Assembly: GCA_006218045.1 (NCBI GenBank)
Contig: VBWB01000005.1
Location: forward strand, 62,001 to 126,000
From: Stygiobacter sp.
GTDB taxonomy: Bacteria; Pseudomonadota; Alphaproteobacteria; Rhodospirillales; Magnetospirillaceae
Direction of reading: 5' to 3'
Length of the DNA: 64,000 nt
Positions 28,910 to 57,836 of the stretch are shown here, piece after piece (position 1 is the first letter of the stretch; every line of letters begins with the position of its first letter). Below the pieces are notes generated by a model. It was not told the DNA's origin. It saw nothing but the letters and a program-made list of their open reading frames with translations, and did not search any database. The position numbers were made by a program, and so were the translations under genes.

Positions 28910-29899
28910 ATGAAGATCGTTCGCGCCCCATTGCGCATCACTCTTGGCGGTGGCGGCACCGATCTGCCCGGCTGGTATCGCGAGCATGGCGGCTTTCTGG
29001 TTTCCGCGGCCATCGACAAGCATATTTACCTGACCGGTTCGCGCCGTGTTTACGATGAGAATATTTGGCTCAGCTATTCCAAGGTCGAGGTTTGTCGCGA
29101 CGTTTCGGAAGTCAGCCACGAATTGTTCAAGGCCTGCCTGAAGCGCTTTGATTTCCCCCGCGGCTACGAGATCCACTCGATTTCCGAATTGCCGGGCAAT
29201 ACCGGATTGGGATCGTCGGGCGCTTTCCTGGTCGCCACCATCAAGCTGCTGGCCGAGGTGGAAAAGCGGGCGATGAGCGAACAGGACATCGCCGAGATGG
29301 CCTGCCAGATCGAGATGGAGGAATTGGGGCGCAATTCCGGCAAGCAAGATCCCTATGCGGCGGCTTTTGGCGGCATCATCGCCCTGAATATCGATAAGAG
29401 CGGGCATGTGGAGGTGGAGCCGGTCAAATTGTCGGGTCGCACCATCCGTGAAATGACCAGCACCATCCGGCTGTATTCCACCGGGATCACCCGCAATTCC
29501 GAGGAAGTGCTGAGCCATCAGAATCAGAATCTCGGGGCCAAGCAACGTTCGGCGGTCGAGGCGATGACCCGTATCCAGGAAATCGGCTATGAATCGCGCG
29601 ACTGCCTGCTGGCCGGGGATGTGGAAGGCTTTGGCCGCCTGATGCACGAGCATTGGCAGGTGAAGAAATCCATGAGCGCCAAGATGTCGGCCCCCGAGAT
29701 CGACGCGCTTTATAACTTTGCCATTGCCCAGGGGGCTTTGGGCGGCAAGATCATCGGCGCCGGTGGCGGCGGTTTCCTGATGGTTTATGTGCCGCCGGCC
29801 AAGCTGGCCGATTTTGACGAAGCCATGAGCAATCTGGGGTGCCAGGAAATGGATTGGCGCTTCTCGGATGCCGGCGTCACCTCGCTTTATTCCATCTGA
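28910..29899 (+). CDS. hddA: GHMP kinase, D-glycero-alpha-D-manno-heptose 7-phosphate kinase-like (HddA)
   Basis: MKIVRAPLRITLGGGGTDLPGWYREHGGFLVSAAIDKHIYLTGSRR...GLGSSGAFLVATIKLL...SGKQDPYAAAFGGI. Confidence 0.9.
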   Translation: MKIVRAPLRITLGGGGTDLPGWYREHGGFLVSAAIDKHIYLTGSRRVYDENIWLSYSKVEVCRDVSEVSHELFKACLKRFDFPRGYEIHSISELPGNTGLGSSGAFLVATIKLLAEVEKRAMSEQDIAEMACQIEMEELGRNSGKQDPYAAAFGGIIALNIDKSGHVEVEPVKLSGRTIREMTSTIRLYSTGITRNSEEVLSHQNQNLGAKQRSAVEAMTRIQEIGYESRDCLLAGDVEGFGRLMHEHWQVKKSMSAKMSAPEIDALYNFAIAQGALGGKIIGAGGGGFLMVYVPPAKLADFDEAMSNLGCQEMDWRFSDAGVTSLYSI

Positions 29900-29913
29900 C
29901 CGGGAGAAATGAT

Positions 29914-31008
29914 GTGCGGCGGTCCGTTGGTATCATCGGGGGCGGTATCTTTGGCCTGACAGCCGCCGTCAATCTGAGCGACACGCATGACGTCACGGTT
30001 TTCGAGCAGTCTCCGGACATTCTGACCGGAGCCACCTGGGCCAATCACAACCGCCATCATTACGGCTATCATTATCCGCGCAGTCCGGAAACCGCGCAGC
30101 AATGTCTGGAAAGCCGGGAATTGTTCGAGGGCACCTATGGCGATTGCTGCAACCGCTCTTTCGCCAATTATTATTGTGTGGCCAAGGAAGACACCAAGAC
30201 CACGCCCGAGGATTATGTCCGGTTTTGCGATCAGGTCGGGTTGGGCTGGCGGGAAGAATGGCCGCAGGGCGATATCCTTGACCGCTCCCGCATCGCCTTG
30301 AGCCTGCGGACGGAAGAGGGCGTTTATGATTTCGCCACGCTGAAGCGGTTGATCGGCGAACGTCTGGGGCGCAGCCGCGACGTGACGCTGCATCTTCGCC
30401 ACCGGGTGATTGACGCCAGCATCGCCGCGGGCGGGGAAAAGCGGCTGGTTGTCGAAGATCCCGACGGCGGACGCCGTGAAATGCAGTTCGATTATCTGAT
30501 CAATGCCATGTACGCCAATTATAATCGCTTCTGCGGTTGGCTGGGCTTTGAACAGAAACTGTTTCAGTACAATCTTCAGGAATTGTGCGTCATCGATCTG
30601 CCGGTGAACGACCCGGTGGGGATCACTATTCAAGACGGGCCCTTTCCGTCCTTTCTGCCGTTGGGCTTTTCCAGAAACCGCTGTCTGTTCGCCCATGTCG
30701 AGGCGTCACAGCTTGTCCGCGATGTTTCCAATGGCCGGACGCCGTTGCTTAATCGGGTTCTCAACATCCAGTCCAACTGGTCCGGGGTCCGCGATGTCAG
30801 CGCCCCGCTGATCCCGATCATCAACCGGGCCCAATACGTTCGCTCGATCTTCGTTGATCGTGTCGTCGATGCGACCAAGGCCGCCTCGGATGCGCGGCTG
30901 ACGGATGTCACCGATCATGGCCAAGGATGCTGGTCGATTTTCGCGGCCAAGATCATCACCTGTGAAGCCAATGCCCGCCGTATCGCCGGTGCCATTGCCG
31001 TGGGCTGA
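29914..31008 (+). CDS. FAD-dependent oxidoreductase (DAO-like)
   Basis: GTG start: VRRSVGIIGGGIFGLTAAVNLSDTHDVTVFEQSPDILTGATWANHNRHHYGYHYPRS. Confidence 0.8.
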   Translation: MRRSVGIIGGGIFGLTAAVNLSDTHDVTVFEQSPDILTGATWANHNRHHYGYHYPRSPETAQQCLESRELFEGTYGDCCNRSFANYYCVAKEDTKTTPEDYVRFCDQVGLGWREEWPQGDILDRSRIALSLRTEEGVYDFATLKRLIGERLGRSRDVTLHLRHRVIDASIAAGGEKRLVVEDPDGGRREMQFDYLINAMYANYNRFCGWLGFEQKLFQYNLQELCVIDLPVNDPVGITIQDGPFPSFLPLGFSRNRCLFAHVEASQLVRDVSNGRTPLLNRVLNIQSNWSGVRDVSAPLIPIINRAQYVRSIFVDRVVDATKAASDARLTDVTDHGQGCWSIFAAKIITCEANARRIAGAIAVG

Positions 31009-31041
31009 TCCGATAACCGGTATTGGGGTGAGGTGGGGCGG

Positions 31042-33246
31042 ATGATGTGGTTTTTTCCGGCGACCATCGTCAATTCGGCAACGTCGCAGACGCTGGCCGT
31101 CATCGTTTTCGCCGTTTGCCTATGGCTTTTCATCCGCCGGGCCCAGCGGCTGGAAAACCTTGCCGTCGGGCCGTTCTTCGCCGCATGGGCCGCCATCTGG
31201 CTGTTCGAGTACGTTTATCTCGGCCAGAATTCCTATGTCTATCCCGACGATGAAGGCAATTGGGTCATACCCTTCATCAAGCTGGCGGCGGCCAATGGTG
31301 GCAACCAGCTCTCGCATCTGATCGCCGCCGATCATGAAACCGGGGCTTCGTTTCTGACCGGCGGGGCCGTCCTGACCTTTGACGGCCTGTTGCTCAGCCA
31401 CCTGCCCGCATGGATCGCCATTGCCGTGCATAAGCTGGCCGTGGTCACCTTGCCGTTTTGGGGAATTTATCTGCTGGCGGTTCGCGGCCTTGGCTGCCGG
31501 CGGGCCATCGCCATCGCCTTCGCCGCCCTGATCACCGTCAGTACCCATCATATGATGCTGGTCACCTATGCCACCGGTCTGAGCCGGGCGCTGATCCCGT
31601 TGGCATGCTGGTTTGCGGTCGCCCGCCTGGGTCGGCCCGGTTACTGGCTGGGGGTGACCCTGTATTCCGGGGTCATCGCCCTGTGCATGGTCCCGGTCGA
31701 GGGTTTGCTGCCGCTGGGGGCATCCGTTTTGGCGGTGACCTTGTTGTTGGGACGGACGTCATGGCGTGATTTGCTGACCGTGGCACTGGCGATTGCCGTG
31801 TTGGTTGTGCCGCTGATCATCAATTGGGCCGATTCCCTGTACGGCATGATGCAATTGGCGCCCCTCTCCCCTTATGCCAGAAATGCCGTCGATCGGGCCG
31901 AATGGGGCTATCGTCTGGGGCAGATCGGCAATGCCCTGTGGCAATTATGGCCGCATAGCGTCAACGGCCTGCCCCAAAGCCTGGCCCTGTCATCCTTGGT
32001 CGTGTTGTTCGTCGGCGCCCGGCCCGAGCGCTGGCGCGCCCTGGGCACCCTGCTGATGCCGATCTTGATTTTCGCCGCCATCATTTTGTTCCCCTGGGAA
32101 AGGCTTGGTTTGGCCGCCATCCGTGGCGCCACGCTTGAATATTGCCTGGAAGCGGGAGTGATCACCGCCCCCTTGCTGGGGGCGCTGGCGGCCGAAGCGT
32201 TGTTTGCACGCTGGCCGAAAGCGGTCCTGGCCGGATCATTCGCCGTTGCGGTGATGCTGCTGGCCTGGGTAAAGGCCCATAATCTGCTCCTGCATTATGA
32301 CCATGGCGGGCAAAGCGCCTATCGCGCCGAAAACCTTGTGGATGCGGCCTGGGCCCCGGCGGAACCGTTCCGGGTCATCACCTTGTGGCACAAATACCTG
32401 ACCCCCGAGCAGAACGTGCCCAGCGGTTTCAACGGATTGGCCGCCTTTGACCAATATCTGAACATCTCGTTCGCCAACCATCAGGATTATTGGTCTTACG
32501 GCATCATGCGGAGCACGCCGCGCCGCGACCTGGATTTACAGTGGCATTACTGGAATGGTCAGGCATACGAATTGGACCGCCAAGCCTCTTCCGCCTTGCT
32601 GGGCTTGGCCAATGTGCGCTTCATCATCAGTCCGGTGCCGCTGGTCGGAGAATCGCTGCGGTTCGTCGATGGCCCCAAGGACTTGCCCAAGGACCGTGCG
32701 ATCCTGAAAATGCGCCGGCTGAACGATGGCGACAACAGTTGGAAGCGCCGCATCGCCGATAGTGTCGATGAGACCCGCTGGCATTTCGAGCGGATGTTTG
32801 AATACGGCAAGCTCTATATCTACGAAATCGCGCAATCCAAGCCGCGGGCCTATGGCGCTCGCCAAATCATCGAGGTGGCTGACCATATGCCGCCCAAGGA
32901 ATTCCATGGGTTAATCGAGCGTCATGCCGCCGAAAACGCGGCGGTGCTGCGCCATCGGGATCGACCGGCTTTGCCCTCTGCCGGGCAGGTGACCGTGACC
33001 GGGCTGTCTTTGCTGCCGGATGGATATGATCTATCCGTGTCGGCGCCGACGGATGGATTGGTGTTGGTCAATATCAGCTTCAGTCCATTTCTATCGGCGC
33101 AATGTGCTGATCAAGCTTTGACTTTGTCCGCCGCTAACGGCGTACAGACGGCTGTAGTAGTTCCGGCCGGATGTTCCGATGTCAGACTGCGCTACTACCG
33201 TCCGACAGCCTGGGAAGCCCTTGCTAAATTGTGGATTCGGCACTGA
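31042..33246 (+). CDS. Large multi-TM protein with extracytoplasmic C-terminal domain (GT-C-like candidate), paralog of 37918..40158
   Basis: ~11 hydrophobic helices; ...NSYVYPDDEGNWVIPFIKLA...HYDHGGQSAYRAENLVDAAWAPAEPFRVITL; shared layout with 37918..40158. Confidence 0.65.
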   Translation: MMWFFPATIVNSATSQTLAVIVFAVCLWLFIRRAQRLENLAVGPFFAAWAAIWLFEYVYLGQNSYVYPDDEGNWVIPFIKLAAANGGNQLSHLIAADHETGASFLTGGAVLTFDGLLLSHLPAWIAIAVHKLAVVTLPFWGIYLLAVRGLGCRRAIAIAFAALITVSTHHMMLVTYATGLSRALIPLACWFAVARLGRPGYWLGVTLYSGVIALCMVPVEGLLPLGASVLAVTLLLGRTSWRDLLTVALAIAVLVVPLIINWADSLYGMMQLAPLSPYARNAVDRAEWGYRLGQIGNALWQLWPHSVNGLPQSLALSSLVVLFVGARPERWRALGTLLMPILIFAAIILFPWERLGLAAIRGATLEYCLEAGVITAPLLGALAAEALFARWPKAVLAGSFAVAVMLLAWVKAHNLLLHYDHGGQSAYRAENLVDAAWAPAEPFRVITLWHKYLTPEQNVPSGFNGLAAFDQYLNISFANHQDYWSYGIMRSTPRRDLDLQWHYWNGQAYELDRQASSALLGLANVRFIISPVPLVGESLRFVDGPKDLPKDRAILKMRRLNDGDNSWKRRIADSVDETRWHFERMFEYGKLYIYEIAQSKPRAYGARQIIEVADHMPPKEFHGLIERHAAENAAVLRHRDRPALPSAGQVTVTGLSLLPDGYDLSVSAPTDGLVLVNISFSPFLSAQCADQALTLSAANGVQTAVVVPAGCSDVRLRYYRPTAWEALAKLWIRH

Positions 33247-33334: not shown

Positions 33335-34171
33335 GTGAAGGTGGATCTGTCGATCATCATTCCCGCTTATAACGAGGAGCGGCGGTTGCCGCCGACCATC
33401 GAAAAGGTGCTTGAGTGGGCTGATGACAGTGTCGTCTTCAATATCGAACTGATCATTGTCGATGATGGCAGCCAGGATGATACCCGTGCCATGGTGCGCA
33501 CATTCGCCGAGCGGGACGCGCGGGTGCGGTTGATCGAGGAAACCCATGTCGGCGCCATGCACGCCATCATGTCCGGGTTCCGCGCCGCGCGCTATGAACT
33601 GGTCGGCAACATGGACGCCGATTGCGCGGTTCATCCGCGCGAATATGAACGGCTTTTGCCGTTTGTCAGTGCAACCGGCATTGCTCAAGGCTCTCGGGTG
33701 CTGCGTGATGGCTTGCCTTCGGTGGAAAACAAATCGCTGCCCCGCCGCGTGCTGTCCTTCTTCATGTATCGTCTGTTCATTGGCCTGTTTCCCATCGGTG
33801 TTCATGACCCGCAGATTGGATTTCGCCTGTTCAATCGTTCGGCGGTCTTGCGCATCATTCCGCTGATGCGGCTGCCGCACGACGGCATCAAGCACGCCGA
33901 GGTGGTGGTGCGCGGTTTCGGCCTGGGTATGGCGATTACGGAAATTCCGGTGCCCTATATTCATGACGAAGATTCCAGGTGTGTGCCCAAATCGCCGGTG
34001 AAGATGGCGACGACGGCTTTGGCGGCGGCATGGGCGGTTCTGACGATGTGGGGGCAGGTTGCCGTCGATTACCACCGTGGCATTCTGTCGCGGTGTCCGG
34101 TGAGATTGGCGGCGATCTTTCGACCGTTCGCCGGTTGCCGCGGCACCGGTCCCGAGCGTGGTGGCGTCTGA
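33335..34171 (+). CDS. Family 2 glycosyltransferase
   Basis: VKVDLSIIIPAYNEERRLPPTIEKVLEW...IIVDDGSQDDT...GNMDADCAVHP. Confidence 0.93.
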   Translation: MKVDLSIIIPAYNEERRLPPTIEKVLEWADDSVVFNIELIIVDDGSQDDTRAMVRTFAERDARVRLIEETHVGAMHAIMSGFRAARYELVGNMDADCAVHPREYERLLPFVSATGIAQGSRVLRDGLPSVENKSLPRRVLSFFMYRLFIGLFPIGVHDPQIGFRLFNRSAVLRIIPLMRLPHDGIKHAEVVVRGFGLGMAITEIPVPYIHDEDSRCVPKSPVKMATTALAAAWAVLTMWGQVAVDYHRGILSRCPVRLAAIFRPFAGCRGTGPERGGV

Positions 34172-34198
34172 GGCGCGGAAGTGGATTGGAGAGACACC

Positions 34199-35767
34199 GT
34201 GACCCTGTCCAGCTCATCCCGCTGCGTTGCTTTGGTCCGTGGGCCCATCGTCACCGCCGCCGGGGCGGTCAATAACGAAGCGACGCCGGCCATCGCCTTG
34301 GCCTACATCGCCGCGACAATTCGCAAGGGCGGTTACGAGCCGGTTTTGGTCGACGCCATCGCCGACGGTCTCAACCGCATCTGGCATCTCGACAAATATC
34401 CCGGGTTTGGTTGTCAGGGCCTGACCTTCGCCGAAATCATCGAACAAATCCCCGCCGATGTCCGGGTCATCGGTGTTTCCGGCATGTTTTCCAGTGAATG
34501 GCCGGTCATGCGTGACCTCATCACTGAAATTCGGGCGCAGTTCCCGCACGCTCTGCTGGTGGCCGGGGGCGAGCATGTCACCGCCCTGACCGAGTACAGC
34601 CTGCGGGATTGTCCGGCTTTGGATGTCTGCGTGCGGGGAGAAGGGGAGCGGACGTTCCTGGCTCTGCTTGACGCCTGGTACGAATCCGGCACTTACGAGG
34701 GTGTGCCCTCGTTGGGCTATCTCGATGCGGCGGGGGTTTATCGGGAAAGCTCGGGTGTCGCCCGTATTCGCGACGTGGATTCGCTGCCGTGGCCGGAATG
34801 GCCGGAAGGGTATCTGGAAAAATTCTGGGCCGCCGGCAAGTCTTTTGGCATCGGCACGGCCCGCGACATGCCGTTCATGCTGTCGCGCGGATGTCCCTAT
34901 CGCTGCACGTTCTGTTCAAACGAGCGCATGTGGACGACCCGATATATTTTGCGTGAGATCGATGATGTAATCGCCGAACTCAAGCATTACATCGAACGTT
35001 ACGACATTACCTCCGTACAGCTTTACGACCTGACGGCCATCGTCAACCGCAACTGGCTGTTGGAATTCGCCGCGCGCATCCAAGCTGAAGGAATTGCCAT
35101 TCAATGGTCGACTCCGTCGGGCACGCGCAGTGAAGCCCTGGATCAGCAGGGGCTGGCGGCGTTGCGCCAGATCGGCTGTCAATACTTGGTTTACGCGCCG
35201 GAAAGCGGCTCGGCCGAGACCTTGAAGCGCATTCAAAAGCGCATTGATCTCAACAAGCTGACCGCCTCGGTCCTGGAGGCCAAGCGCCAGGGCTATACCA
35301 TCCGCATCAATTTGATTCTGGCGTTTCCCGAAGATACCTGGATGGATTTGATCAAGACCATCTTCTATGGCCTTAAAATGGCCGCGCGCGGCGTGGACGA
35401 GGTTCCGTTCTACATTTTCAGCCCCTATCCCGGCACCGCGATTTTCGAGACGTTACGCGACGACCAGCGCTTGGCGCTGAATGATTCGTTCTTTTTCCGG
35501 CTGTCGGCGTTGAACAGCGCTTATCTATCCGCCGATGTTTTGTCGTTCAATCCACGCATGAATCCCCGGGTGCTCGGGATGATCCGCCTGGGTGGGCTGC
35601 TGACCACGTATGCGGTTGGTTATCTGCTGTACCCGAAGCGTATCGTGCGCACTCTCAAGGCGGTTTTCGGTAGCGAACATCGCTCGTTTACGGTCTTCGA
35701 ACATCGTCTCAAGGACATGATGGCGCGCAGGCGTGCCGTTGTCGGCGATGATCGCCCTTCAAGCTGA
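34199..35767 (+). CDS. B12-binding-domain radical SAM protein
   Basis: N-term B12-like domain (ALAYIAATIRKGGYEPVLVDA...VIGVSGMFSSEWPVMRDL), radical SAM motif RGCPYRCTFCSNERMW. Confidence 0.92.
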   Translation: MTLSSSSRCVALVRGPIVTAAGAVNNEATPAIALAYIAATIRKGGYEPVLVDAIADGLNRIWHLDKYPGFGCQGLTFAEIIEQIPADVRVIGVSGMFSSEWPVMRDLITEIRAQFPHALLVAGGEHVTALTEYSLRDCPALDVCVRGEGERTFLALLDAWYESGTYEGVPSLGYLDAAGVYRESSGVARIRDVDSLPWPEWPEGYLEKFWAAGKSFGIGTARDMPFMLSRGCPYRCTFCSNERMWTTRYILREIDDVIAELKHYIERYDITSVQLYDLTAIVNRNWLLEFAARIQAEGIAIQWSTPSGTRSEALDQQGLAALRQIGCQYLVYAPESGSAETLKRIQKRIDLNKLTASVLEAKRQGYTIRINLILAFPEDTWMDLIKTIFYGLKMAARGVDEVPFYIFSPYPGTAIFETLRDDQRLALNDSFFFRLSALNSAYLSADVLSFNPRMNPRVLGMIRLGGLLTTYAVGYLLYPKRIVRTLKAVFGSEHRSFTVFEHRLKDMMARRRAVVGDDRPSS

Positions 35768-35776
35768 CGAGGCCCC

Positions 35777-37921
35777 ATGGCAGACATTTTCCTCAGCGTT
35801 ATCATTCCTACTTTCGGTCGCAGTGCTGATCTGGTGGGGTTGTTGCGGTCCCTCACGCCGGGGCAAGAGGGGCGGGAGGTCGTCGTCATCGACGATTGCT
35901 CGCCTGATCCCAGCCAATTCGACGGCTTGAAGCAGGACTTTCCCGCCGTTCGCTTCGTCCACCTGGACCAGAACGGCGGCCCCGGTCGGGCGCGCAACCT
36001 TGGCGCCCTTGAGGCGGCGGGCGAGGTCTGCCTGTTCCTTGATTCCGATACCGAATTGCTGGCCGGGGGCTTGGATGAGGTCGAGCGGTTCTTCCGCGAG
36101 AACCCCAACCGCAACATGGTGGCCGGCTGGGATGCGGCGGTGCCGTTGAATGCGGGTTTCTTCCCCCGCTTCAAGGCGCTGTCCATGGTGGTGGGCGCTC
36201 CCGCGGTGGATGCCGAAGTGCCGTTCCTGCCGGGGCGCTGCTTTGCCGTCCGCCGTCAGGTCATGATCGACAGCGGTGGTTTCGACACCACCTACAAAGG
36301 CGCCGATGTCGAGGATTTTGAACTTGGCTATCGTTTGCGCAAAAGCTATGGCCCGATCACCTATCTGACCAAGCTGCGGGTGCATCACCGCTATCCGGAT
36401 CTGATGAAGCAGTTCCGCCTTTATTGGCGGCGGGTGCGGATGTGGATGGATTTGCGGGCCACGGCCGGGGCCTTCGACGCCGGCTTCGGCATGAGCGGCA
36501 ATGACGCCCTGATTCAATTGTTGAGCGGCTTGTGGCCGTGGGCTTTTCTCCTGCTGCTGCCCTTCGGCTGGTGGCTGCCGGGTGTGGCGGTATTGGCGGC
36601 GGCCATTTATGCCAATCGGCGCTTCCTGGGGCTGTGCCAGCGCGAGGAAGGCCTGCTTTTCACCGCTAAAGCGATCATGTGCCAAAGCTTCTTGGCTCAG
36701 GCCATTTTGGCCGGTGCCGGATCGGTGGTGCTGACCAAGCCGTCGGTGCTGGTCCATTTCGGCGGCGGCAAGATCGTGCGGCTGGCGCGGCGTCTGGTGC
36801 GTCTGGCCGATCATGGCCGCGTCTATCTGCGCACCTTGTTGTCCGATGGGCCGACGTATCTGATCTTTTTCGTCACCGGGCGCTGCAATCTGCGCTGTGC
36901 CCATTGCTTCTATATCGAAGAGATCGAGCACGCCGATAAATCCCGCGAGCTGACCCTGGCGGAGATCGAGTCCATCGCCCGCAAGGCGCCCGCGCTCTAT
37001 CACATCACCTTTACCGGCGGAGAGACATTCTTGCGCGACGATATCGCCGATATCGTCGAAATGTTCTATCGCCATGCCAGCACCCGCTCGGTGACCCTGA
37101 CCACCAACGGCACGGTGCCCGAGTTGATCGCCCGGGCGGTGGAACGCATCGCCATCGCCTGCCCCAACATGGTGGTCCGGGTGCCCCTGTCGGTGGACGG
37201 CACCGAGCCCGTGCATGACAAAAGCCGCGGTATGCAGGGCGCATGGAAGAAGGCCATGCGCACCTACGAAATGTTGCGCCAGGTGGCCGACCGTCACGAC
37301 AATGTGAAGCTGGATCTGACCAGTGTGTTGACCCAGCTCAACGGCGACGACATCGAAAAGCTGGCCGAATACGTCAAGGCCAACATGAAGGTGGATAACC
37401 ACGCCATCAATCTGGCGCGCGGCGCTATCCGTGACCCCGAGTCCATTCGCCCGGCCGAAGGCATTTACGAACGCATCATCGAGCGCACCCGCGGCGACCG
37501 TACCCGCAGCAAATACCGTTTCCCGTTGCTGTCGCGCATCCTGATCGCCATGCGCAACATGACCGAACAGACGATCCAGTGGGTGCAGGCCAATGGCCGC
37601 ATGCCGTTCGTCTGTGAAGCCGGGACCCGGCTGATCGAGATGAATGAATATGGCGAGCTGTTTCCGTGCGAAATTCTGGATACGCTGATCGCCAATGGTG
37701 AAACCCTGGCACCGGCGCCATTTGAAAAGTCGTGGATGGGCAATGTCCGGGCGCATGAATACGATCTGCGCGCGGTACTGGCCAGTGATCAGGCCAAGGC
37801 GGTCAGCCGCTTCATCCGCGACGGTGGCTGTGCCTGTACCTTTGAATGCGCTATCGGTGCCAGCTTGGTGTTCCGCCCGGTGAACATCTTTAAATCCCTG
37901 ATGTTGTACGGGAAGAAATGA
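35777..37921 (+). CDS. Fusion: GT2 glycosyltransferase (with TM segment) - radical SAM/SPASM-like protein
   Basis: Single 714-aa ORF: MADIFLSVIIPTFGRSADLVGLL...VVVIDDCSPDPS...FLDSDTELL, TM WPWAFLLLLPFGWWLPGVAVLAAAIYA, then FFVTGRCNLRCAHCFYIEEIEHAD...ITFTGGETFLRDDIADIV. Confidence 0.93.
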   Translation: MADIFLSVIIPTFGRSADLVGLLRSLTPGQEGREVVVIDDCSPDPSQFDGLKQDFPAVRFVHLDQNGGPGRARNLGALEAAGEVCLFLDSDTELLAGGLDEVERFFRENPNRNMVAGWDAAVPLNAGFFPRFKALSMVVGAPAVDAEVPFLPGRCFAVRRQVMIDSGGFDTTYKGADVEDFELGYRLRKSYGPITYLTKLRVHHRYPDLMKQFRLYWRRVRMWMDLRATAGAFDAGFGMSGNDALIQLLSGLWPWAFLLLLPFGWWLPGVAVLAAAIYANRRFLGLCQREEGLLFTAKAIMCQSFLAQAILAGAGSVVLTKPSVLVHFGGGKIVRLARRLVRLADHGRVYLRTLLSDGPTYLIFFVTGRCNLRCAHCFYIEEIEHADKSRELTLAEIESIARKAPALYHITFTGGETFLRDDIADIVEMFYRHASTRSVTLTTNGTVPELIARAVERIAIACPNMVVRVPLSVDGTEPVHDKSRGMQGAWKKAMRTYEMLRQVADRHDNVKLDLTSVLTQLNGDDIEKLAEYVKANMKVDNHAINLARGAIRDPESIRPAEGIYERIIERTRGDRTRSKYRFPLLSRILIAMRNMTEQTIQWVQANGRMPFVCEAGTRLIEMNEYGELFPCEILDTLIANGETLAPAPFEKSWMGNVRAHEYDLRAVLASDQAKAVSRFIRDGGCACTFECAIGASLVFRPVNIFKSLMLYGKK

Positions 37922-40158
37922 GCGGATCGGTCTTTTCCGTCGCCGCCCCATGGCTGGGGGCGGGGATCGGTTTGATCGTTTTTGCCGGTATGGCGCGGGC
38001 TGTGGGCAAACGGGGCGGTTTGGTCGATGACCGCCGCGTCGTCCCTGCCGTCGCCGTTGTCGCCCTGATCAGTTTATCCATTTTCTGGAGTCTTGGTCCG
38101 AACTCGTATGTGACCTTTGGCGACGAAGGGGAATACGTCATTCCCTTTGTCCATTGGCTGGCGACCTATCATGACGGCGGACGCTTTGCCCACGCCCTGT
38201 TGGGGGGCGTTGACGTTTACGCCCTGGAAATCGCCGGCTTACAGTATTTTTACCCGGAACGCCTGTTGATGACGGTGCTTCCGGTGTGGGGGGTGCTCGC
38301 CCTGCATAAGACGGCCTTGTTTCTTCTCGGCTATTCCGGAACCTATTTGTTGTGCCGGAGGTTGGGGGCGACGCGTCTGTGGTCCGCTGCCCTCGCCCTG
38401 TTTTATCTGAGTACGCCGTTGCGCGGCGACGACACCTTCTCCCAAGGAATGGTTTCCTTCGTATTGCCCTATGTGCTGCTGGTGTTCACGCAGCTCATTC
38501 AATCGCGCTGGTTTTTCGCCGCGGTGGCGCTGGTCGCGGTACCGGCATGCACCTTGGCGCCGGTGCACACCTTTCCTGCCGTTCCGATCACCGCCCTTGC
38601 CGGCTGGGTGATGCTGTCCCGACAGCGACCGGGGCGGCTGTTGGCCGGTCTGTCGGCCATGGTGGCGGTCGAGGCGGTGAACTGGTCGGAAATTCTTTAC
38701 GCCAGTATCGTCTTGGCGCCGCATTCATTGCGGGGTGCGGCGCAGGACCAAGGCCAAGGGTCCCTGTGGGCGCATTTGGATTATATCCGGGCGACCGTGA
38801 CGACGATTTTTGCCCCGACCTGGTCGATGGTCGTCGTGTGGCTGTGCGGTCTGGGTTTGTTGATCTGGAAACGGACCCACTCCCTGGTCTGGGTCCTGGT
38901 CGCGCTTCTGGTCGGGGTCACGCTTCCGCTGCTGCCGGTTTTACCCCCCTGGGACATGGTCGGGCTGGGATTCCTGACCCGAATCAGTTGGGGCAATTGC
39001 GTGATCTATGGGCCGGCCCTGGCTTTGCCGGTCTTGACCTTGGCCTATCAGCAATGGGCGGATTCATGGGGCGCCTACCCGCTCCGTCGGGCCTTGCCGG
39101 CGGTGGCGGTGTTGGCCCTGGCGGTGGGAAGTCTTGCCGGGCAAAGGGTGGCGCAGTTGGGCACCCTGGTCCATTTCGGCGGTCAAAGCCAATACCATGC
39201 CGTCGCCAATCTGCGGCAGCCATCATGGCAGGATGCGCAACCCATGCGCGCCGTCACGGTTATCGGCGGTGCTCCCGCCCGCAACGTCGCTGCGGGGTTT
39301 TACGGCTTCGATAGCTTCGACGGCATGTTTACGCTGTATCCACGGGCCATATCGGAACTCTATGGCTTCGGCATTCAAAAAACCGGTCGGCCCAATTTCA
39401 CCCCCGAGATTTATTGGGATGCGGCGTATTGGGATTGGAACAGTCTGAGCCTTGATTTCGACGCTGTGGTTGATACGACCTTTTTGCGTATCGCCAATGT
39501 GGGTTATGTTTTCAGTTCCACCCGGTTGAACGGCGTCGAACTGGACTTGTTGTCGGGGCCGCCGACGGTCGAGCGGGTGTGGTCGACGCAAAGCAATGCG
39601 CAGGAAAAGCTGGCTTACTACCAGCACCGTTGGCGCAGTATCTTCGTCCCCCAGGACGCCTTTGTTTACGCCCTCAAGGATCCGTTGCCCCGGATTTACG
39701 CTGCGACCGCGATTCATTGGCTGAAAGAGTCCGGCTCGCCGCGTGCGGCCATGGCGGAAATTCGCCAGCACGCCCCGGCGCGGCGGGCGGTGTTGGACCC
39801 GCGCTATCGCTCGGATCTGGCTTCGCTCGGTGATGGCGTGCCGACGGTCACCGGCTTCACCTTGGTGCGCGACGGCATTGACATTGAACTTCAGGCCCCC
39901 AAGGGCGGATTGGTGGTGGTCAATACCCCCTTCATGCCGTTCTGGCAGGGATGGGCGGATGCCGGCGGGGTAACGTTGGTGCCCGCCAATCATGTGGCCA
40001 TGGCGGTGGCGGTGCCGCCCGGGACGCGCCGGGTGGCGTTGCGTTATTGCCGACCTTTGTTGCGAGAACAAATCGCCGCATGGGCGTTCAAGGCTGACCC
40101 GGTGTGTACGCGGTCACCGTTTCCGCTTTCGTCAGTCGATACCGGAGTCACGAAATGA
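37918..40158 (+). CDS. Large multi-TM protein with extracytoplasmic C-terminal domain (GT-C-like candidate), paralog of 31042..33246
   Basis: ATGA overlap with the upstream fusion gene; NSYVTFGDEGEYVIPFVHWLA...LVHFGGQSQYHAVANLRQPSWQDAQPMRAVTV; same C-terminal VTGFTLVRDGIDIELQAPKGGLVVVNTPFMPFW motif class. Confidence 0.65.
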   Translation: MSGSVFSVAAPWLGAGIGLIVFAGMARAVGKRGGLVDDRRVVPAVAVVALISLSIFWSLGPNSYVTFGDEGEYVIPFVHWLATYHDGGRFAHALLGGVDVYALEIAGLQYFYPERLLMTVLPVWGVLALHKTALFLLGYSGTYLLCRRLGATRLWSAALALFYLSTPLRGDDTFSQGMVSFVLPYVLLVFTQLIQSRWFFAAVALVAVPACTLAPVHTFPAVPITALAGWVMLSRQRPGRLLAGLSAMVAVEAVNWSEILYASIVLAPHSLRGAAQDQGQGSLWAHLDYIRATVTTIFAPTWSMVVVWLCGLGLLIWKRTHSLVWVLVALLVGVTLPLLPVLPPWDMVGLGFLTRISWGNCVIYGPALALPVLTLAYQQWADSWGAYPLRRALPAVAVLALAVGSLAGQRVAQLGTLVHFGGQSQYHAVANLRQPSWQDAQPMRAVTVIGGAPARNVAAGFYGFDSFDGMFTLYPRAISELYGFGIQKTGRPNFTPEIYWDAAYWDWNSLSLDFDAVVDTTFLRIANVGYVFSSTRLNGVELDLLSGPPTVERVWSTQSNAQEKLAYYQHRWRSIFVPQDAFVYALKDPLPRIYAATAIHWLKESGSPRAAMAEIRQHAPARRAVLDPRYRSDLASLGDGVPTVTGFTLVRDGIDIELQAPKGGLVVVNTPFMPFWQGWADAGGVTLVPANHVAMAVAVPPGTRRVALRYCRPLLREQIAAWAFKADPVCTRSPFPLSSVDTGVTK

Positions 40159-42646: not shown

Positions 42647-43480
42647 TTAGGATCGATCGAGAAATTCAGGGTCCTGCTGTAATCTGCGTACGGCAAGATC
42701 AACGGCGGGCCGTAGTGTCAGCAGGGTGAAGCGGTAATCATCCAGCCAAGTCTCACGCAGGCATCCGGCAGCAATGAAGTCCTGCCGCAATGTCTCGAAA
42801 TTATGGGCCAAACCGGGATATTTGCGCAAACGCTCGAAACGCCGACCGTTTTCGTCCTCGACCAGGATGGTGACCTGCCGCTGGGTGACGAAGTGATCGC
42901 CGGCCATAAATTCCGCGAGATGAAGGGCGGTGCAGGCGGCCAGGCCGGTGTTCATGAACAGGACGTGGCCGTCGGCCAGATACAGCTTGTGTACGGGGCT
43001 GCCGATCCCCAGCATTTCATGCAAGGGGTGGTCTTGGGTGTAATATTGGGCCTTGGCACCGATGGCGGCGATGGACGCGATGGGGTGGTGGCTGCGCCGC
43101 ATTTGCGGGTAGGACAAAAAGGTTTCCACCAGCATTCCGCGATTGCGGGCCGGCGTGCGATGCGGATCGAAGGGCGCCATGTTGGCGCGGATCACATCTT
43201 GCCAAGCCGGCGGAACAGGGGGATTTTTCCATTCGGCGGGATCGGTCAGATGACCCGATTGCGCCGGCACCAACATGGTGCCGTCCGACCCCAGCACATC
43301 GAGCATGGCATCGATGGCGTCGTGGGCGCCGTTGACCAGATAGCCCAATCGGCCAAGGGCGGAATGGACCATCACATCCATGCCGGCGTCAATACCCGCC
43401 GTCACGAACAGACCGGCCATATCCATCCGGGTCAGAACCCGTGGCCATAATTGGTCAGTTCTCACCATGTGCTCTTTCAA
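42647..43480 (-). CDS. AAC(3)-family N-acetyltransferase, probably sugar-modifying
   Basis: DVMVHSALGRLGYLVNGAHDAIDAMLDVLGSDGTMLVPAQSGHLTDPAEW...RNRGMLVETFLSYPQMRRSHHPIASIAAIG. Start may be ATG 43468. Confidence 0.85.
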   Translation of the reverse strand: MKEHMVRTDQLWPRVLTRMDMAGLFVTAGIDAGMDVMVHSALGRLGYLVNGAHDAIDAMLDVLGSDGTMLVPAQSGHLTDPAEWKNPPVPPAWQDVIRANMAPFDPHRTPARNRGMLVETFLSYPQMRRSHHPIASIAAIGAKAQYYTQDHPLHEMLGIGSPVHKLYLADGHVLFMNTGLAACTALHLAEFMAGDHFVTQRQVTILVEDENGRRFERLRKYPGLAHNFETLRQDFIAAGCLRETWLDDYRFTLLTLRPAVDLAVRRLQQDPEFLDRS

Positions 43481-46468: not shown

Positions 46469-47004
46469 AGCAGCGACTTCAGCCTTTCCAAATAGGCGGA
46501 GGCGATAGCGGCATCGCTTCCATCCGGGGCCCAGGGGGCGAAAAGAGAATCGCCCGGTCCCATGAACGGTCCTGGCCTACTTTCACGGCGGACGACGGTA
46601 GGTGTCAACAGGACGAGGGTGTGGTACTGGGCATTGCCGACCCGGTAAAGGAAATTTTCATCGGGACTTAAAATTTGAGCATCGGTCACTGCGCCGTCTT
46701 TATCAAAGACGAAAACACCCGCACGCCCATGCAGCATGTGCCAAGTCTCGTCCTTGTCCATATGGCGGTGGGGCCGGTAATAACCACCGCCGTGCTGGAC
46801 GATGATCATGTCGTGGAAGTTTTCTTCAGGCCCTTGATGAAGGCATAGACGCAGATCGCCGCCGCTGGTTTCCGCCCGTACAATCAGGTCGGCGACCACG
46901 GCGTGATTCAAGGTGATGGGCTTGCCCTGGCAGAACAGGGCAGGAGTGCGCCCAGAGTTACACTCAAGAACGCGTTCGCTGTCGTCAAGGCGGATCAGGC
47001 TCAT
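46465..47004 (-). CDS. Cupin-fold protein, WbuC-like
   Basis: GGYYRPHRHMDKDETWHMLHGRAGVFVFDKDGAV. Confidence 0.78.
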   Translation of the reverse strand: MSLIRLDDSERVLECNSGRTPALFCQGKPITLNHAVVADLIVRAETSGGDLRLCLHQGPEENFHDMIIVQHGGGYYRPHRHMDKDETWHMLHGRAGVFVFDKDGAVTDAQILSPDENFLYRVGNAQYHTLVLLTPTVVRRESRPGPFMGPGDSLFAPWAPDGSDAAIASAYLERLKSLL

Positions 47005-48857
47005 GTGGTTCTTCCAAAATGTGCGATGGCCCGTGTATCCAGAGGCGGAAGCGCCCCATCAAGAAAGGCGGAAAAAGCGAATTGACGGTCACGGGTCTGC
47101 CAATAAGGGGAACGCTTGAGCTTTTCAATCGCCTTACTTTTTGCGGCCTGAGTAGCGGCTGTGTCATTCTGTCGATGATGTAGGTATGACTGGACGCAAT
47201 CAATGGCAGGATTGTCTTCGTAGGCGGTCCCCAAGGCGGTCAGCCAGCGGATTGCGTTACGCACGCGTTGTTCACTGTCCGTGGTCGCTGCGGGTATCCG
47301 CAGGAAGTTGGCCAAATAGTTGAACGTGAACCAGATTTCCTTGAGCTGTTCCGGGCCGGGTAGTGACATCGGATCAAGATCAAAAACGTGATAGCCGCTA
47401 GCCAAATCGGCCCGCTCATCAAGGCGTTGGATGCTGCCGTCCCGGACGGGGTTGAAATTCATGGTGGTGCCGCGCTGGCGAACATCTTCATCGGCACGAC
47501 CGTCATCCATGCCGCCATAGGCCAGATAGGCATCGGTGTTTTTGAGCGGTCGGAAGGTGAAGAAATTATTCCAATCCAGGGCCGCTCGGGTCGAGACGGC
47601 AAAGGAGTCAAGCATCTGTCCGAAGGTTTCATTCGGCAGGCCGAGAATGAAATTCACTAGGTATTGCAGGCGCGGATAATTTTTCGACAAATCGGCAAAT
47701 TCGAAAAACGTCTTGATGGTGGCCGGCTTGCGGATACTGCGCAGCAACTCAGGGTTGCCGGTTTCCAGGCCGACGCCAAATCCGATGCAGCCGGAATTCT
47801 GCATGGCTTCAAGCAAGGCCGGAGTAACGGCGGCGGCAATCAGGCCATTATGAGCACCCCACGTAATGTCGGGTAGGCGATGACCGATTTCCTGAAACAG
47901 TTCATGGGCGGCGTCGTGATTGTAAAGCAGGTCGTCGTCAAGCCAGTCGAAATGACGGACGCCATGAACATCATGCAGATGCACCATTTCATCGACCACG
48001 TTGGCGGTCTGACGAATGCGCACGTTTTTACCGTTGAAATTCCGAACAGCGCAAAACGTACATTTTGCCCGACAGCCACGGCGTGAAATCACGGTGGCGT
48101 AAGGAACGTCAATTCCGCGCATACGCGAGAAATTATTGAGTGAACCGATTTCGTGGTAACGGGCTATGGGCAGTTTTGAATATTGCTGCCGGATGTCCAG
48201 ATCCACCTCGCCGCCGGTGGTGACGGAGGTGGAAATCAGGTCGCCGTTATCGTTCAGAAGGCTCAGGTTGGGCGGCGGCGGCGCGGCATTGCGCAGGAAA
48301 TCGTAGAATGCCGCCAGGGGGCGCTCCCCTTCGTTGGAAAACACGCAATCGGCCTTGCCGTGGCGCAACACGCGTTCAGGATCGGCGGTGGCGGCGACGC
48401 CGCCCACGGCCACGCAGCTTTGCGGCCATTTGCCCTTGATGTATTCGACCACCGACAATAATTGCGGATAGGTGGGGTCAAACATGAATGAGACGCAGAC
48501 GAAGGGCTGCTGAAACCGATCCATGGCCGCATCGATGGCTTGTTCCCAGGCAAGGCGCGGATCAAGGTCGCGGCACGCGGCATCAAGGGCGATGTAATTG
48601 AGATCAAGCAAGGCATTGGGTACGTCCAATTGATCAAAGACAGCACCAAGATAAAATAGCGATTGCGGCGGATAGGCGAAATAGCCCCGGTTTCGCGCGA
48701 TCTTGCTTTCCATCAGATGCGGCGGCACCTGGGGAATCTGAATGATCAGCGCGCCGTCCTCGAAATTGAAATGCAGCAGCCGGTCGGCCACGACACGGCC
48801 AATTTCCGCCATCGTCGGTGACGCGGCGGAAACAACGGCGGCATTGATCTCGGTCAT
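47001..48857 (-). CDS. B12-binding-domain radical SAM protein
   Basis: PTYPQLLSVVEYIKGKWPQSCVAVGGVAATADPERVL...ISRRGCRAKCTFCAVRNFNGKNVRIR. Confidence 0.92.
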   Translation of the reverse strand: MTEINAAVVSAASPTMAEIGRVVADRLLHFNFEDGALIIQIPQVPPHLMESKIARNRGYFAYPPQSLFYLGAVFDQLDVPNALLDLNYIALDAACRDLDPRLAWEQAIDAAMDRFQQPFVCVSFMFDPTYPQLLSVVEYIKGKWPQSCVAVGGVAATADPERVLRHGKADCVFSNEGERPLAAFYDFLRNAAPPPPNLSLLNDNGDLISTSVTTGGEVDLDIRQQYSKLPIARYHEIGSLNNFSRMRGIDVPYATVISRRGCRAKCTFCAVRNFNGKNVRIRQTANVVDEMVHLHDVHGVRHFDWLDDDLLYNHDAAHELFQEIGHRLPDITWGAHNGLIAAAVTPALLEAMQNSGCIGFGVGLETGNPELLRSIRKPATIKTFFEFADLSKNYPRLQYLVNFILGLPNETFGQMLDSFAVSTRAALDWNNFFTFRPLKNTDAYLAYGGMDDGRADEDVRQRGTTMNFNPVRDGSIQRLDERADLASGYHVFDLDPMSLPGPEQLKEIWFTFNYLANFLRIPAATTDSEQRVRNAIRWLTALGTAYEDNPAIDCVQSYLHHRQNDTAATQAAKSKAIEKLKRSPYWQTRDRQFAFSAFLDGALPPLDTRAIAHFGRTT

Positions 48858-51514: not shown

Positions 51515-52579
51515 TCAAACAAACATCCCATGATCCGGGTCGATGGCCAGGAATTCCTGAATGGCCAGGTTCTTCGCATGGGTCACGCAATGGTGTCCAC
51601 ATGAAACACTGGGGTCGAAGCTGAACAGCTTTTTGCGGTTTTCCTCGGAAAACCAGAACTGACGGAAGCCTTGTTCCTTGATCGACCCCAGCAGGCCGGC
51701 GGCATTATAGGCTTTGTCCTGACAGGTGTAGACGCATTGGTCGGCGCCGATGACGGTCAGGAACTGAAGGAAGGCACAGGTCTTGTATTCCTTTTGGAAG
51801 CGTTCTTCCAAATCGTGGTAGTGGTTCAGAACGGTGAAAGACCCATCTTCAAGTCGTTTGGCCGCATTGATCTGCGCGGCGACTTCCGCCTGAATTTCCG
51901 CATGGTACAGATTGTTGCCGGCGGCTTCGTTATCGACGACCGCACCGGAAATCTTCATGTGATTGACGCCGGCTTCTTTCAGCATGCCTGCCACTTCGGC
52001 GATATGGTCGAAGTTGTTTTTGCCGACAATGAAGCTGATTCCCAAGACGCATTGGCTGTTGCGGGCGGAGAAATCGGCAAGATTTCTCATCAGGCGGGGA
52101 AACCCACCGACCGGCGCGCCGCGGCTTTGCTGATAGCTTTGGTCATCCCATGCATCCATGGAAACGCGCAGCCATGTGCCATGCTCGGCGAAGGCATCGG
52201 CCATGCGTCCACGAAGATTGGCCCCGTTACTGAGGGCGGCGACCTTGATGCCGGCTCCGGCCAGACGGTCGATGACGTCGGGCAGGGCCTTGTACAAAAG
52301 CGGTTCGCCACCGCCGGAAAAGGTCACGGCCTTGACCCCCATGGCGATGATGTCGTCAGTGATCTGCATCATCTTGTCGACGGGGATCTCATCCTCCAGA
52401 TCCATGCCGTCGCCCAATTGCAGGTTGTCGACGCGATAGGCGCAATACCAGCAATTATGGTTGCAGCGATTGGTCGGCTTGATCCGGATATGAACCGGCG
52501 CCACCACCTTTTGGTCGCGAAGGGCGTTCAGATGGTCCTGAAAGCGAAGAAATTTGAGCTGACTGTAAAGGATGGCCAT
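51515..52579 (-). CDS. Radical SAM/SPASM-type protein
   Basis: IRIKPTNRCNHNCWYCAYRVDNLQLG...KAVTFSGGGEPLLYKALPDV; C-terminal cysteines CAFLQFLTVIGADQCVYTCQDKAY. Confidence 0.92.
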   Translation of the reverse strand: MAILYSQLKFLRFQDHLNALRDQKVVAPVHIRIKPTNRCNHNCWYCAYRVDNLQLGDGMDLEDEIPVDKMMQITDDIIAMGVKAVTFSGGGEPLLYKALPDVIDRLAGAGIKVAALSNGANLRGRMADAFAEHGTWLRVSMDAWDDQSYQQSRGAPVGGFPRLMRNLADFSARNSQCVLGISFIVGKNNFDHIAEVAGMLKEAGVNHMKISGAVVDNEAAGNNLYHAEIQAEVAAQINAAKRLEDGSFTVLNHYHDLEERFQKEYKTCAFLQFLTVIGADQCVYTCQDKAYNAAGLLGSIKEQGFRQFWFSEENRKKLFSFDPSVSCGHHCVTHAKNLAIQEFLAIDPDHGMFV

Positions 52580-56074: not shown

Positions 56075-56998
56075 TCACAGCCGATTGAGCGCAGCACGAA
56101 TATCGGCGGCAACACTGTCGGCATCAAGCCGGTAATGGGCCAGCAAAGCGTTCTGCGAACCGTAATGGTGGGTAAACTTGTCGGGGATGCCCAGACGCAG
56201 GCCGGGGCGCAGCACGCCGTTGTCTTGCAGCGTTTCAAACACCGCGCTGCCCAGGCCGCCGTTGCGGCTATGCTCTTCCAGGGTCACCACCAGACGAGCG
56301 GGAGCGGCCAGTTCGACCAAAGCGGTCTCGTCCAGCGGCTTGATGGTATGCAGGTTGACGACACCGCAGGCAATGCCATCCGCCGCCAGATTGGCGGCCA
56401 CCTTCAAGGCCCGTTCGACCATGACGCCGCAGGCGAAAATCACCGCATCGCCCGGCGGGGCCATGACGATGGGCTTGCCCAGGGTAAAGCCCAGTTCCGG
56501 GCGCGAGACAACGGTGTCGCCGCCCTTGGCCAGACGGATATACATGGGGCCGGGCCAGTTCAGGGTCTGCGGCATCATCCGGGCCATTTCCTCGGCATCG
56601 GTGACCACCACGACGGCCATGTTGGGCAGGGACCGCATCAGGGCGATGTCCTCGATGGCGGTGTGGGTCGGCCCCAGCGGGGCATAAACGAAGCCGCCGC
56701 CATTGCCGATCAGTCGGACCGGAAGGTTGTGCAGGCACAGGTCGATGGCGACTTGTTCAAAACAGCGGCGGGTCAGGAAGGTGGAGATGGTGTTCACGTA
56801 AGGAATAAAGCCTTCCATGGCCAAGCCGGCGGCCATGCCGACCACATTGGCCTCGGCGATGCCTTCGATCAGATGGCGCTGGGGAAATTCCTTGCGCATG
56901 GCGTCCAAGGTGCCGGGGCCGGGATCGGACCCCAGATACAGCACGCGTTCATCCTGGCGAGCCAGTTCGTGCACCATGTTCAGACAGACTTTGCGCAT
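56075..56998 (-). CDS. Transketolase C-terminal subunit
   Basis: MRKVCLNMVHELARQDERVLYLGSDPGPG...IEGIAEANVVGMAAGLAMEGFIPYVNTISTFLTRRCFEQVAIDL...HYGSQNALL. Confidence 0.9.
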   Translation of the reverse strand: MRKVCLNMVHELARQDERVLYLGSDPGPGTLDAMRKEFPQRHLIEGIAEANVVGMAAGLAMEGFIPYVNTISTFLTRRCFEQVAIDLCLHNLPVRLIGNGGGFVYAPLGPTHTAIEDIALMRSLPNMAVVVVTDAEEMARMMPQTLNWPGPMYIRLAKGGDTVVSRPELGFTLGKPIVMAPPGDAVIFACGVMVERALKVAANLAADGIACGVVNLHTIKPLDETALVELAAPARLVVTLEEHSRNGGLGSAVFETLQDNGVLRPGLRLGIPDKFTHHYGSQNALLAHYRLDADSVAADIRAALNRL

Positions 56999-56999
56999 C

Positions 57000-57836
57000 T
57001 CAGGCGGCTCCCAGGGCGGACTCGATGGCCGCCATTTCGGCAGGGGACAGTTTGTTCTTGTGGTGCCAGTCGGGGTTGTTTTCGGCTGCGGGAATACCGC
57101 GCCCCTTGACGGTATGGCAGATGACCGCGCTGGGCTTGCCGACGGCCACCGGTAAGGCGGTGAAGGACTGGCGCAAGGCGGCGACGTCGTGGCCGTTCAC
57201 TTCCGTGACGGCGAAGCCGAAGCTGCGCCACTTGTCGGCCAGCGGCTCCATGTCCTGGACCTGGGCGGTCGGGCCATAGGATTGCAATTTATTGTAATCG
57301 ATGATGGCGGTCAGATTGTCCAGCCCGTGTTTACCGGCGGCCATGGCCGCTTCCCACACCGAACCTTCGTTGATTTCGCCGTCACCCATGGCGACGAAGA
57401 CGCGGGCATCCTGATTTTTGATGCGCTGGGCCAAGGCCATGCCCAAGCCGATGGACAAGCCGTGGCCCAAGGCGCCGGTCGAGGCTTCGACACCGGGAAT
57501 GATGCCGTATTCAGGATGGCCGCCCAAAATGCTGTCGAAAGCGCAGAAGGTCTTCAACGTAGCGGTCGGGAAAAAGCCGTGATCGGCCAAGACGGCGTAC
57601 AGGGCCAAGCAGCCGTGCCCCTTGGACAGGATGAAGCGGTCACGCCCGTTCCAACCCGGTTCGGCGGGACGGAAGCGCATGACGTCGTCATAAAGTACCC
57701 GGATGATTTCGATCAGCGACAATGCCGGCCCCGGATGGCCGCGGCCGGCGGCGATGAGCGCATCGAACACCAGGCGGCGCAAATGCTTAGAACGGTCGTC
57801 CAGGGCGCCGTCAGCGGGCAATGATGTGATGCTCAT
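57000..57836 (-). CDS. Transketolase N-terminal (ThDP-binding) subunit
   Basis: AGRGHPGPALSLIEIIRVLYDDVMRF...DRFILSKGHGCLALYAVLADHGFF...FVAMGDGEINEGSVWEAAMAAGKHGLDNLTAIIDYNKLQ. Confidence 0.93.
   Translation of the reverse strand: MSITSLPADGALDDRSKHLRRLVFDALIAAGRGHPGPALSLIEIIRVLYDDVMRFRPAEPGWNGRDRFILSKGHGCLALYAVLADHGFFPTATLKTFCAFDSILGGHPEYGIIPGVEASTGALGHGLSIGLGMALAQRIKNQDARVFVAMGDGEINEGSVWEAAMAAGKHGLDNLTAIIDYNKLQSYGPTAQVQDMEPLADKWRSFGFAVTEVNGHDVAALRQSFTALPVAVGKPSAVICHTVKGRGIPAAENNPDWHHKNKLSPAEMAAIESALGAA

Follow-up and report, generated by a model that had tools for sequence, protein, structure and literature searches.

The gene at positions 35777-37921 of the window (the whole stretch of Stygiobacter sp. 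DNA analysed here, 64,000 nucleotides) encodes a GT2 glycosyltransferase and a radical SAM enzyme (rSAM) in one polypeptide. Such fusion is the less common form of a GT2+rSAM module that is widespread in surface-glycan loci, frequently together with a B12-binding rSAM. We propose, with moderate confidence, that the module edits a membrane-bound sugar after its transfer, by epimerising or oxidising it.

Domain layout and conserved motifs

The fusion gene is a 714-residue frame free of internal stops, and both Pfam assignments of its product lie well above the curated cut-offs. Its features are as follows (L084 is a two-gene relative described below):

35777-37921, forward strand: GT2-radical SAM fusion gene, 714 aa (single open frame; Pfam; AlphaFold2)
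35795-36265, forward strand: GT2 catalytic domain, residues 7-163 (PF00535, E 9.8e-19; fold matches)
36041-36049, forward strand: GT2 DxD motif, D89-S-D91 (D89 and D91 invariant in 35/35 aligned GT2 rows)
36311-36316, forward strand: GT2 ED motif, E179-D180 (E or D at 179 in 35/35 rows; D180 in 26/35)
36509-36565, forward strand: hydrophobic, probable membrane segment, residues 245-263 (hydropathy scan; helices in the AlphaFold2 model)
36737-36841, forward strand: junction between GT2 and rSAM, residues 321-355 (comparison with L084)
36872-37372, forward strand: radical SAM core domain, residues 366-532 (PF04055, E 3e-20)
36884-36907, forward strand: CNLRCAHC (CxxxCxxC), the motif for the SAM-binding [4Fe-4S] cluster (C370, C374 and C377 invariant in 28 sequences)
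37613-37669, forward strand: first half of the auxiliary cysteine set, C613-x12-G-x4-C631 then E632 (family comparison)
37829-37849, forward strand: second half of the auxiliary set, C685-x-C687-x3-C691 (CACTFEC; pattern in 104/110 relatives)

The initial annotation had described a continuous 714-aa frame, an N-terminal GT2 domain and a radical SAM domain, CNLRCAHC with later cysteines, and one or more TM segments. The frame and both domains are borne out by translation and by the Pfam search, and six further cysteines (462, 613, 631, 685, 687 and 691) follow the motif at 370-377. A hydropathy scan scores one TM-like segment, residues 245-263, which lies inside a helical stretch (239-355) of the AlphaFold2 model. 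An antisense open frame of 730 aa (window 35759-37951, reverse strand) spans the whole fusion gene and is probably a codon-bias effect in GC-rich coding DNA.

The N-terminal half has the Pfam match, DxD and ED motifs of the GT2 family. The ED motif is a marker of GT2 enzymes with hydroxyl acceptors, and since both DxD and ED are present, the GT2 half can be assigned to this type. The C-terminal half shows the CxxxCxxC motif, GGE and partial TIM barrel of the radical SAM superfamily (Pfam, motifs, Foldseek). CxxxCxxC occurs in all 110 members of the rSAM family and GGE in 109; in a 71-sequence alignment GGE is invariant, and the CxxxCxxC cysteines are kept in 41 of the 42 rows covering those columns. 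Because the catalytic residues (D89, D91 and E179; C370, C374, C377 and GGE) are conserved in relatives, chance is excluded, and to judge from these motifs both domains appear catalytically intact.

The C-terminal cysteines were compared with the motif definitions of the BtrN/twitch and SPASM classes. The first half of a SPASM motif, CX9-15GX4C, is found in 106/110 members (with C-x17-C spacing in 101/110), but canonical SPASM, CX2CX5CX3C, in 0/110, which rules out a canonical SPASM protein. The Pfam SPASM model (PF13186) has no match in the fusion protein and is borderline in one homolog only, at 21.1 against 21.5 bits. Compared with the twitch signature, which goes with one auxiliary cluster, CxCx3C stands in place of CX2C, and the strict twitch pattern is matched by two of the 110. 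Instead, the accessory set runs CX12GX4CE, then CxCx3C 33-54 residues on, and the whole pattern is present in 102/110 members; the family has a cysteine signature of its own, CX12GX4CE...CxCx3C.

Relatives and gene arrangement

Relatives were gathered from 60 related genomes, an order-wide profile search (318 genomes), a phylum-wide search and a scan of genome_contigs. Among the 60 genomes, full-length matches occur in two (G044 and G055), and elsewhere the halves are separate. A viral scan and a first genome_contigs scan with the single fusion protein gave no matches; the genome_contigs loci, of which 80 are named, came up only with aligned closer relatives as the query. These span Nitrospirota, Actinomycetes, Omnitrophota, Gemmatimonadota, Planctomycetota and Bdellovibrionota, and also cyanobacteria, candidate phyla and archaea. 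A plasmid search returned rSAM-only or GT2-only matches and no fusion.

In the set of 110 rSAM members, in which a few genomes are counted twice under different handles, there are 10 fusions, 86 members with a GT2 gene immediately next to them on the same strand (60 GT2-then-rSAM, 26 rSAM-then-GT2), and 14 without a detected GT2, some of these sitting at contig ends. Several relatives (L085, L086) lack a nearby GT2. The initial annotation had named homologs consistently encoded as two proteins as the finding that would count against its reading: relatives are mostly two genes (86/110), but not consistently so, given the 10/110 that are fused. On the 110-row tree (FastTree, with long branches flagged), the fused state requires at least eight changes, five of them forced by strongly supported branches, and gene order changes seven times. 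Fusion has arisen independently at least five times.

A GT2 is fused or adjacent for 21/23 family members in the order-level loci, compared with 20/255 other ORFs (Fisher 3e-18), and for 66/80 family members in the genome_contigs loci, compared with 48/728 other ORFs. The second comparison carries a bias, since the full-length fusion was used to rank its loci; the order-level set is affected less. The coupling of the two domains that had been proposed from the fused protein is thereby well supported as a functional one: fusion recurs, the two genes adjoin in either order, and a GT2 accompanies family members far more often than it does other ORFs.

In Parabacteroides distasonis (NZ_OY725749.1, L083:8938-11415), an rSAM homolog with 28% identity (E 4e-38) precedes a GT28/EryCIII-like glycosyltransferase at a site outside any polysaccharide cluster. 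As this partner belongs to another family, the tie of the rSAM is to glycosyl transfer and not to one gene pair.

Operon and locus surroundings

The fusion gene lies in a tight same-strand run of flavoenzyme, polytopic protein, GT2, B12-binding rSAM, fusion and polytopic protein:

29839-31008, forward strand: FAD-dependent oxidoreductase (DAO), probably in the same operon (PF01266, E 1.1e-15)
31033-33246, forward strand: 737-aa polytopic membrane protein (ORF, hydropathy; no Pfam match)
33335-34171, forward strand: second GT2 glycosyltransferase of the operon (PF00535, E 7.5e-29)
34181-35767, forward strand: B12-binding radical SAM enzyme, ending 9 bp upstream of the fusion gene (PF02310, PF04055)
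37918-40158, forward strand: 746-aa polytopic membrane protein, its start overlapping the fusion stop by 4 bp (ORF, hydropathy)

The two polytopic proteins are apparent paralogs, judged by eye; their C-terminal soluble parts are similar, and neither is recognised by Pfam or NCBIfam. Their GT-C/YfhO-like appearance is an assignment by inspection, because no homologs of them were found in the relatives' loci examined.

The window B12-binding rSAM is 55% identical over 509 residues to one in another alphaproteobacterial assembly (L111), where it lies directly downstream of an rSAM-GT2 pair. Of the 80 genome_contigs loci, about 35 contain a homolog, often abutting the module. Other recurrent neighbours are flavin amine oxidases (PRK07208/UGM-like, 11 loci), PMT_2 membrane transferases and Asn-synthase amidotransferases. 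Outside this run the window forms a surface-glycan region rich in NDP-sugar enzymes, with DegT aminotransferases, sugar epimerases, GHMP kinases, a transaldolase, a split transketolase and a C-methyltransferase; many Nitrospirota module loci are not obvious polysaccharide islands.

The contig carries 7 of the 34 rSAM matches in the genome, five of them B12-binding. The six besides the fusion fall within about 62 kb, an unusually rSAM-rich glycan region:

Window 34181-35767, 47001-48857 and 51515-52579: three other rSAM genes
L164:7839-9692, L165:2940-4499 and L165:10297-11982: three further rSAM genes of the contig

Also in the window is an aminoglycoside 3-N-acetyltransferase family protein (42647-43480, reverse strand; PF02522, E 9.5e-63; NCBIfam below cut-off). 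It sits inside the glycan locus and would more probably act as a sugar N-acyltransferase than in resistance.

Structure models

The initial annotation had suggested an AlphaFold model; the full chain, predicted by AlphaFold2 with 71 aligned sequences, is confident (mean pLDDT 91.4, pTM 0.70). This pTM indicates two well-formed domains whose relative placement is less certain. In a fold search of the PDB, the GT2 half matches the wall teichoic acid GT2 enzymes RmlT, TarS and TarP as well as hyaluronan synthase, and the rSAM half matches SkfB and BlsE. Modelled alone (pLDDT 91.6, pTM 0.91), the rSAM half matches SkfB, CteB, BlsE, MoaA, anSME, viperin, DesII and SpeY (Foldseek); BlsE has TM-scores of 0.59/0.66, and 0.59 is the top query TM-score in the search. 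Peptide-modifying enzymes (SkfB, CteB, anSME) score level with sugar-acting ones, and because both kinds are among the matches, the fold does not decide between a peptide and a sugar substrate.

Proposed function and alternatives

With a little better than even confidence, we favour a scheme of transfer followed by editing: once the GT2 has placed a sugar on a membrane-bound acceptor, the rSAM tethered to it oxidises or epimerises that sugar. The gene product would be one bifunctional, membrane-associated enzyme, the fused form of the module. With a nucleotide sugar as donor, its GT2 half would glycosylate an acceptor at the cytoplasmic membrane face, probably a glycan intermediate linked to a lipid; its rSAM half would cleave SAM to give a 5'-deoxyadenosyl radical, which would take hydrogen from the transferred sugar or from the one next to it. 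The C-terminal cysteines would bind an auxiliary Fe-S cluster that accepts or donates an electron, leaving an epimerised or oxidised sugar, after which the adjoining B12-binding rSAM may make one more change and the polytopic membrane proteins may hand the product on.

Intact motifs, conserved pairing, repeated fusion and linkage to the B12-binding rSAM support this scheme, within which we infer the membrane-bound acceptor, step order, reaction type, cluster content and substrate. The sugar-acting folds (BlsE, DesII, SpeY) among the matches count in favour of sugar editing, BlsE being a radical SAM enzyme that acts at C5 of a sugar; the NDP-sugar enzymes of the window locus and the glycosyltransferase of another family beside the Parabacteroides homolog likewise favour the scheme. 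Against it are the equally good fold scores of peptide-modifying rSAMs, the relatives that lack a nearby GT2, the many Nitrospirota loci that do not look like polysaccharide islands, and the fact that only one hydrophobic segment of the fusion scores as a membrane helix. Two precedents can be cited: HpnI (GT2) followed by HpnJ (rSAM), which remodel a sugar on a lipid (PMC12583986), and DprE1/E2, which act as epimerases on a sugar carried by a polyprenyl lipid (PMC11127046).

A rather unlikely alternative is that the rSAM acts not on the sugar but on a lipid carrier or hopanoid-like lipid, which the GT2 glycosylates, as in the building of the hopanoid side chain. The B12-binding rSAM neighbours score best against HpnJ and BchE models in several loci, flavin amine oxidases (PRK07208/UGM-like) are neighbours in 11, and the Parabacteroides partner is annotated for lipid glycosylation; but HpnJ itself works on the sugar of the lipid (PMC12583986), and the window locus is crowded with nucleotide-sugar enzymes.

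Slightly less likely still, the two enzymes would share a pathway and have separate substrates, the rSAM editing, for example, the nucleotide-sugar donor before transfer. This would suit the majority of members, which are separate proteins, and the soluble sugar substrate of BlsE, as well as the fold matches to DesII and SpeY. Repeated fusion nevertheless suggests a gain from tethering, though it is not proof of channelling.

In mycofactocin, an rSAM and a GT2 are encoded together, and by analogy with MftC and MftF the rSAM could act on a small peptide or protein, which the GT2 would then glycosylate. We regard this as improbable. The GT2 does match the MftF model, and peptide maturases lead the rSAM fold search, but every NCBIfam score falls well short of its cut-off (MftF 69.9 of 280, mycofactocin rSAM 47.6 of 265) and no conserved precursor-like small ORF lies near the 80 modules: a search there for RiPP precursors gave antisense or unrelated small ORFs only, plus a DsrE-like 90-aa gene in seven loci.

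Origin of the fusion

The closest relative of the fusion, from a Bacteriovoracales assembly (L084), is 56-59% identical across the rSAM domain and consists of two genes. There the GT2 gene ends in TAA, followed by TAGGAGAAATT and the ATG of the rSAM gene, so that the intergenic stretch holds a stop, a Shine-Dalgarno-like AGGAG and a start. The window sequence continues in frame through the equivalent stretch. From this comparison, the simplest account is that the window fusion arose by a small in-frame change that removed the stop and start. Although the closest relative is two genes, an assembly or sequencing artefact joining two adjacent genes is very improbable and was rejected, as the GT2 frame runs in register across the junction into the rSAM frame, the stop, Shine-Dalgarno and start of L084 have no counterpart in the window, and single-ORF fusions at nine other loci make a one-off frameshift unnecessary.

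The transketolase half at window 56075-56998 has a 48% identical counterpart in L084. The window transketolase is split into two halves (56075-57836, reverse strand), of which the C-terminal one resembles that of L084, so wider locus content is partly common to L084 and the window.

Comparison with known systems

Neither the fusion architecture nor the cysteine signature appears to have been described in the collections and open literature searched. In agreement with the initial annotation, which did not recognise a characterised architecture, NCBIfam gives no characterised match, every score being far below cut-off, and no description of a GT-rSAM fusion or module was found in the open-access journal literature searched.

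Mycofactocin MftC/MftF are alike in pairing an rSAM with a GT2 and give weak model matches, but far below cut-offs; with no precursor-like ORF in 80 loci, identity with a mycofactocin enzyme is ruled out. RmlT, TarS and TarP are the top structural matches to the GT2 half and lack an rSAM partner, while a Brachyspira rSAM/GT block (PMC4267127) is a loose parallel only. The twitch/SPASM enzymes acting on sugars and cyclitols (BtrN, SpeY, NeoN, and the sugar decarboxylase BlsE) likewise combine an rSAM core with C-terminal cysteines, and the C-x17-C spacing here fits their CX9-15GX4C; in contrast to twitch CX2C and SPASM CX2CX5CX3C, the second cluster motif in this family is CxCx3C, and the partner is a membrane glycosyltransferase. 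DprE1/DprE2 and related polyprenyl-linked sugar epimerases also alter a sugar once it is on a membrane lipid (PMC11127046), but by oxidase/reductase rather than radical SAM chemistry, whereas the GT2 here has the hydroxyl-acceptor ED motif.

Known cases of sugar editing are mostly on nucleotide-activated sugars, and there are very few examples of radical SAM chemistry on membrane-bound glycans, such as HpnJ. Tentatively, and with somewhat less than even confidence, we suggest that the module may be a new class of machinery for the radical editing of glycans, spread over many bacterial phyla and into some archaea. Its membrane GT2 and the cognate rSAM, which bears a new auxiliary-cluster signature, would (often together with a B12-binding rSAM) alter a sugar after its attachment to a membrane-bound acceptor and so create unusual surface sugars. 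If so, its presence in Nitrospirota, Pseudomonadota, Actinomycetes, Omnitrophota, Gemmatimonadota and archaea would mean that many radical-modified glycans are still to be mapped, and the fused form would be a ready single-gene handle on the module's product.

The hopanoid cyclitol ether pathway, HpnI-HpnK-HpnJ, is similar in that a GT2 places a sugar on a membrane lipid and an rSAM remodels it, from clustered genes (PMC12583986). HpnJ is, however, B12-binding and unfused, whereas the rSAM of the fusion has no B12 domain and a different set of C-terminal cysteines; identity with HpnJ is ruled out by the absence of a B12-binding Pfam match in the fusion, and the B12-binding rSAM neighbour (34181-35767) scores 88.8 of 577.6 against the HpnJ model (NCBIfam). 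In outline, by analogy, the fusion may work like such a GT2/rSAM pair for remodelling lipid-linked sugars.
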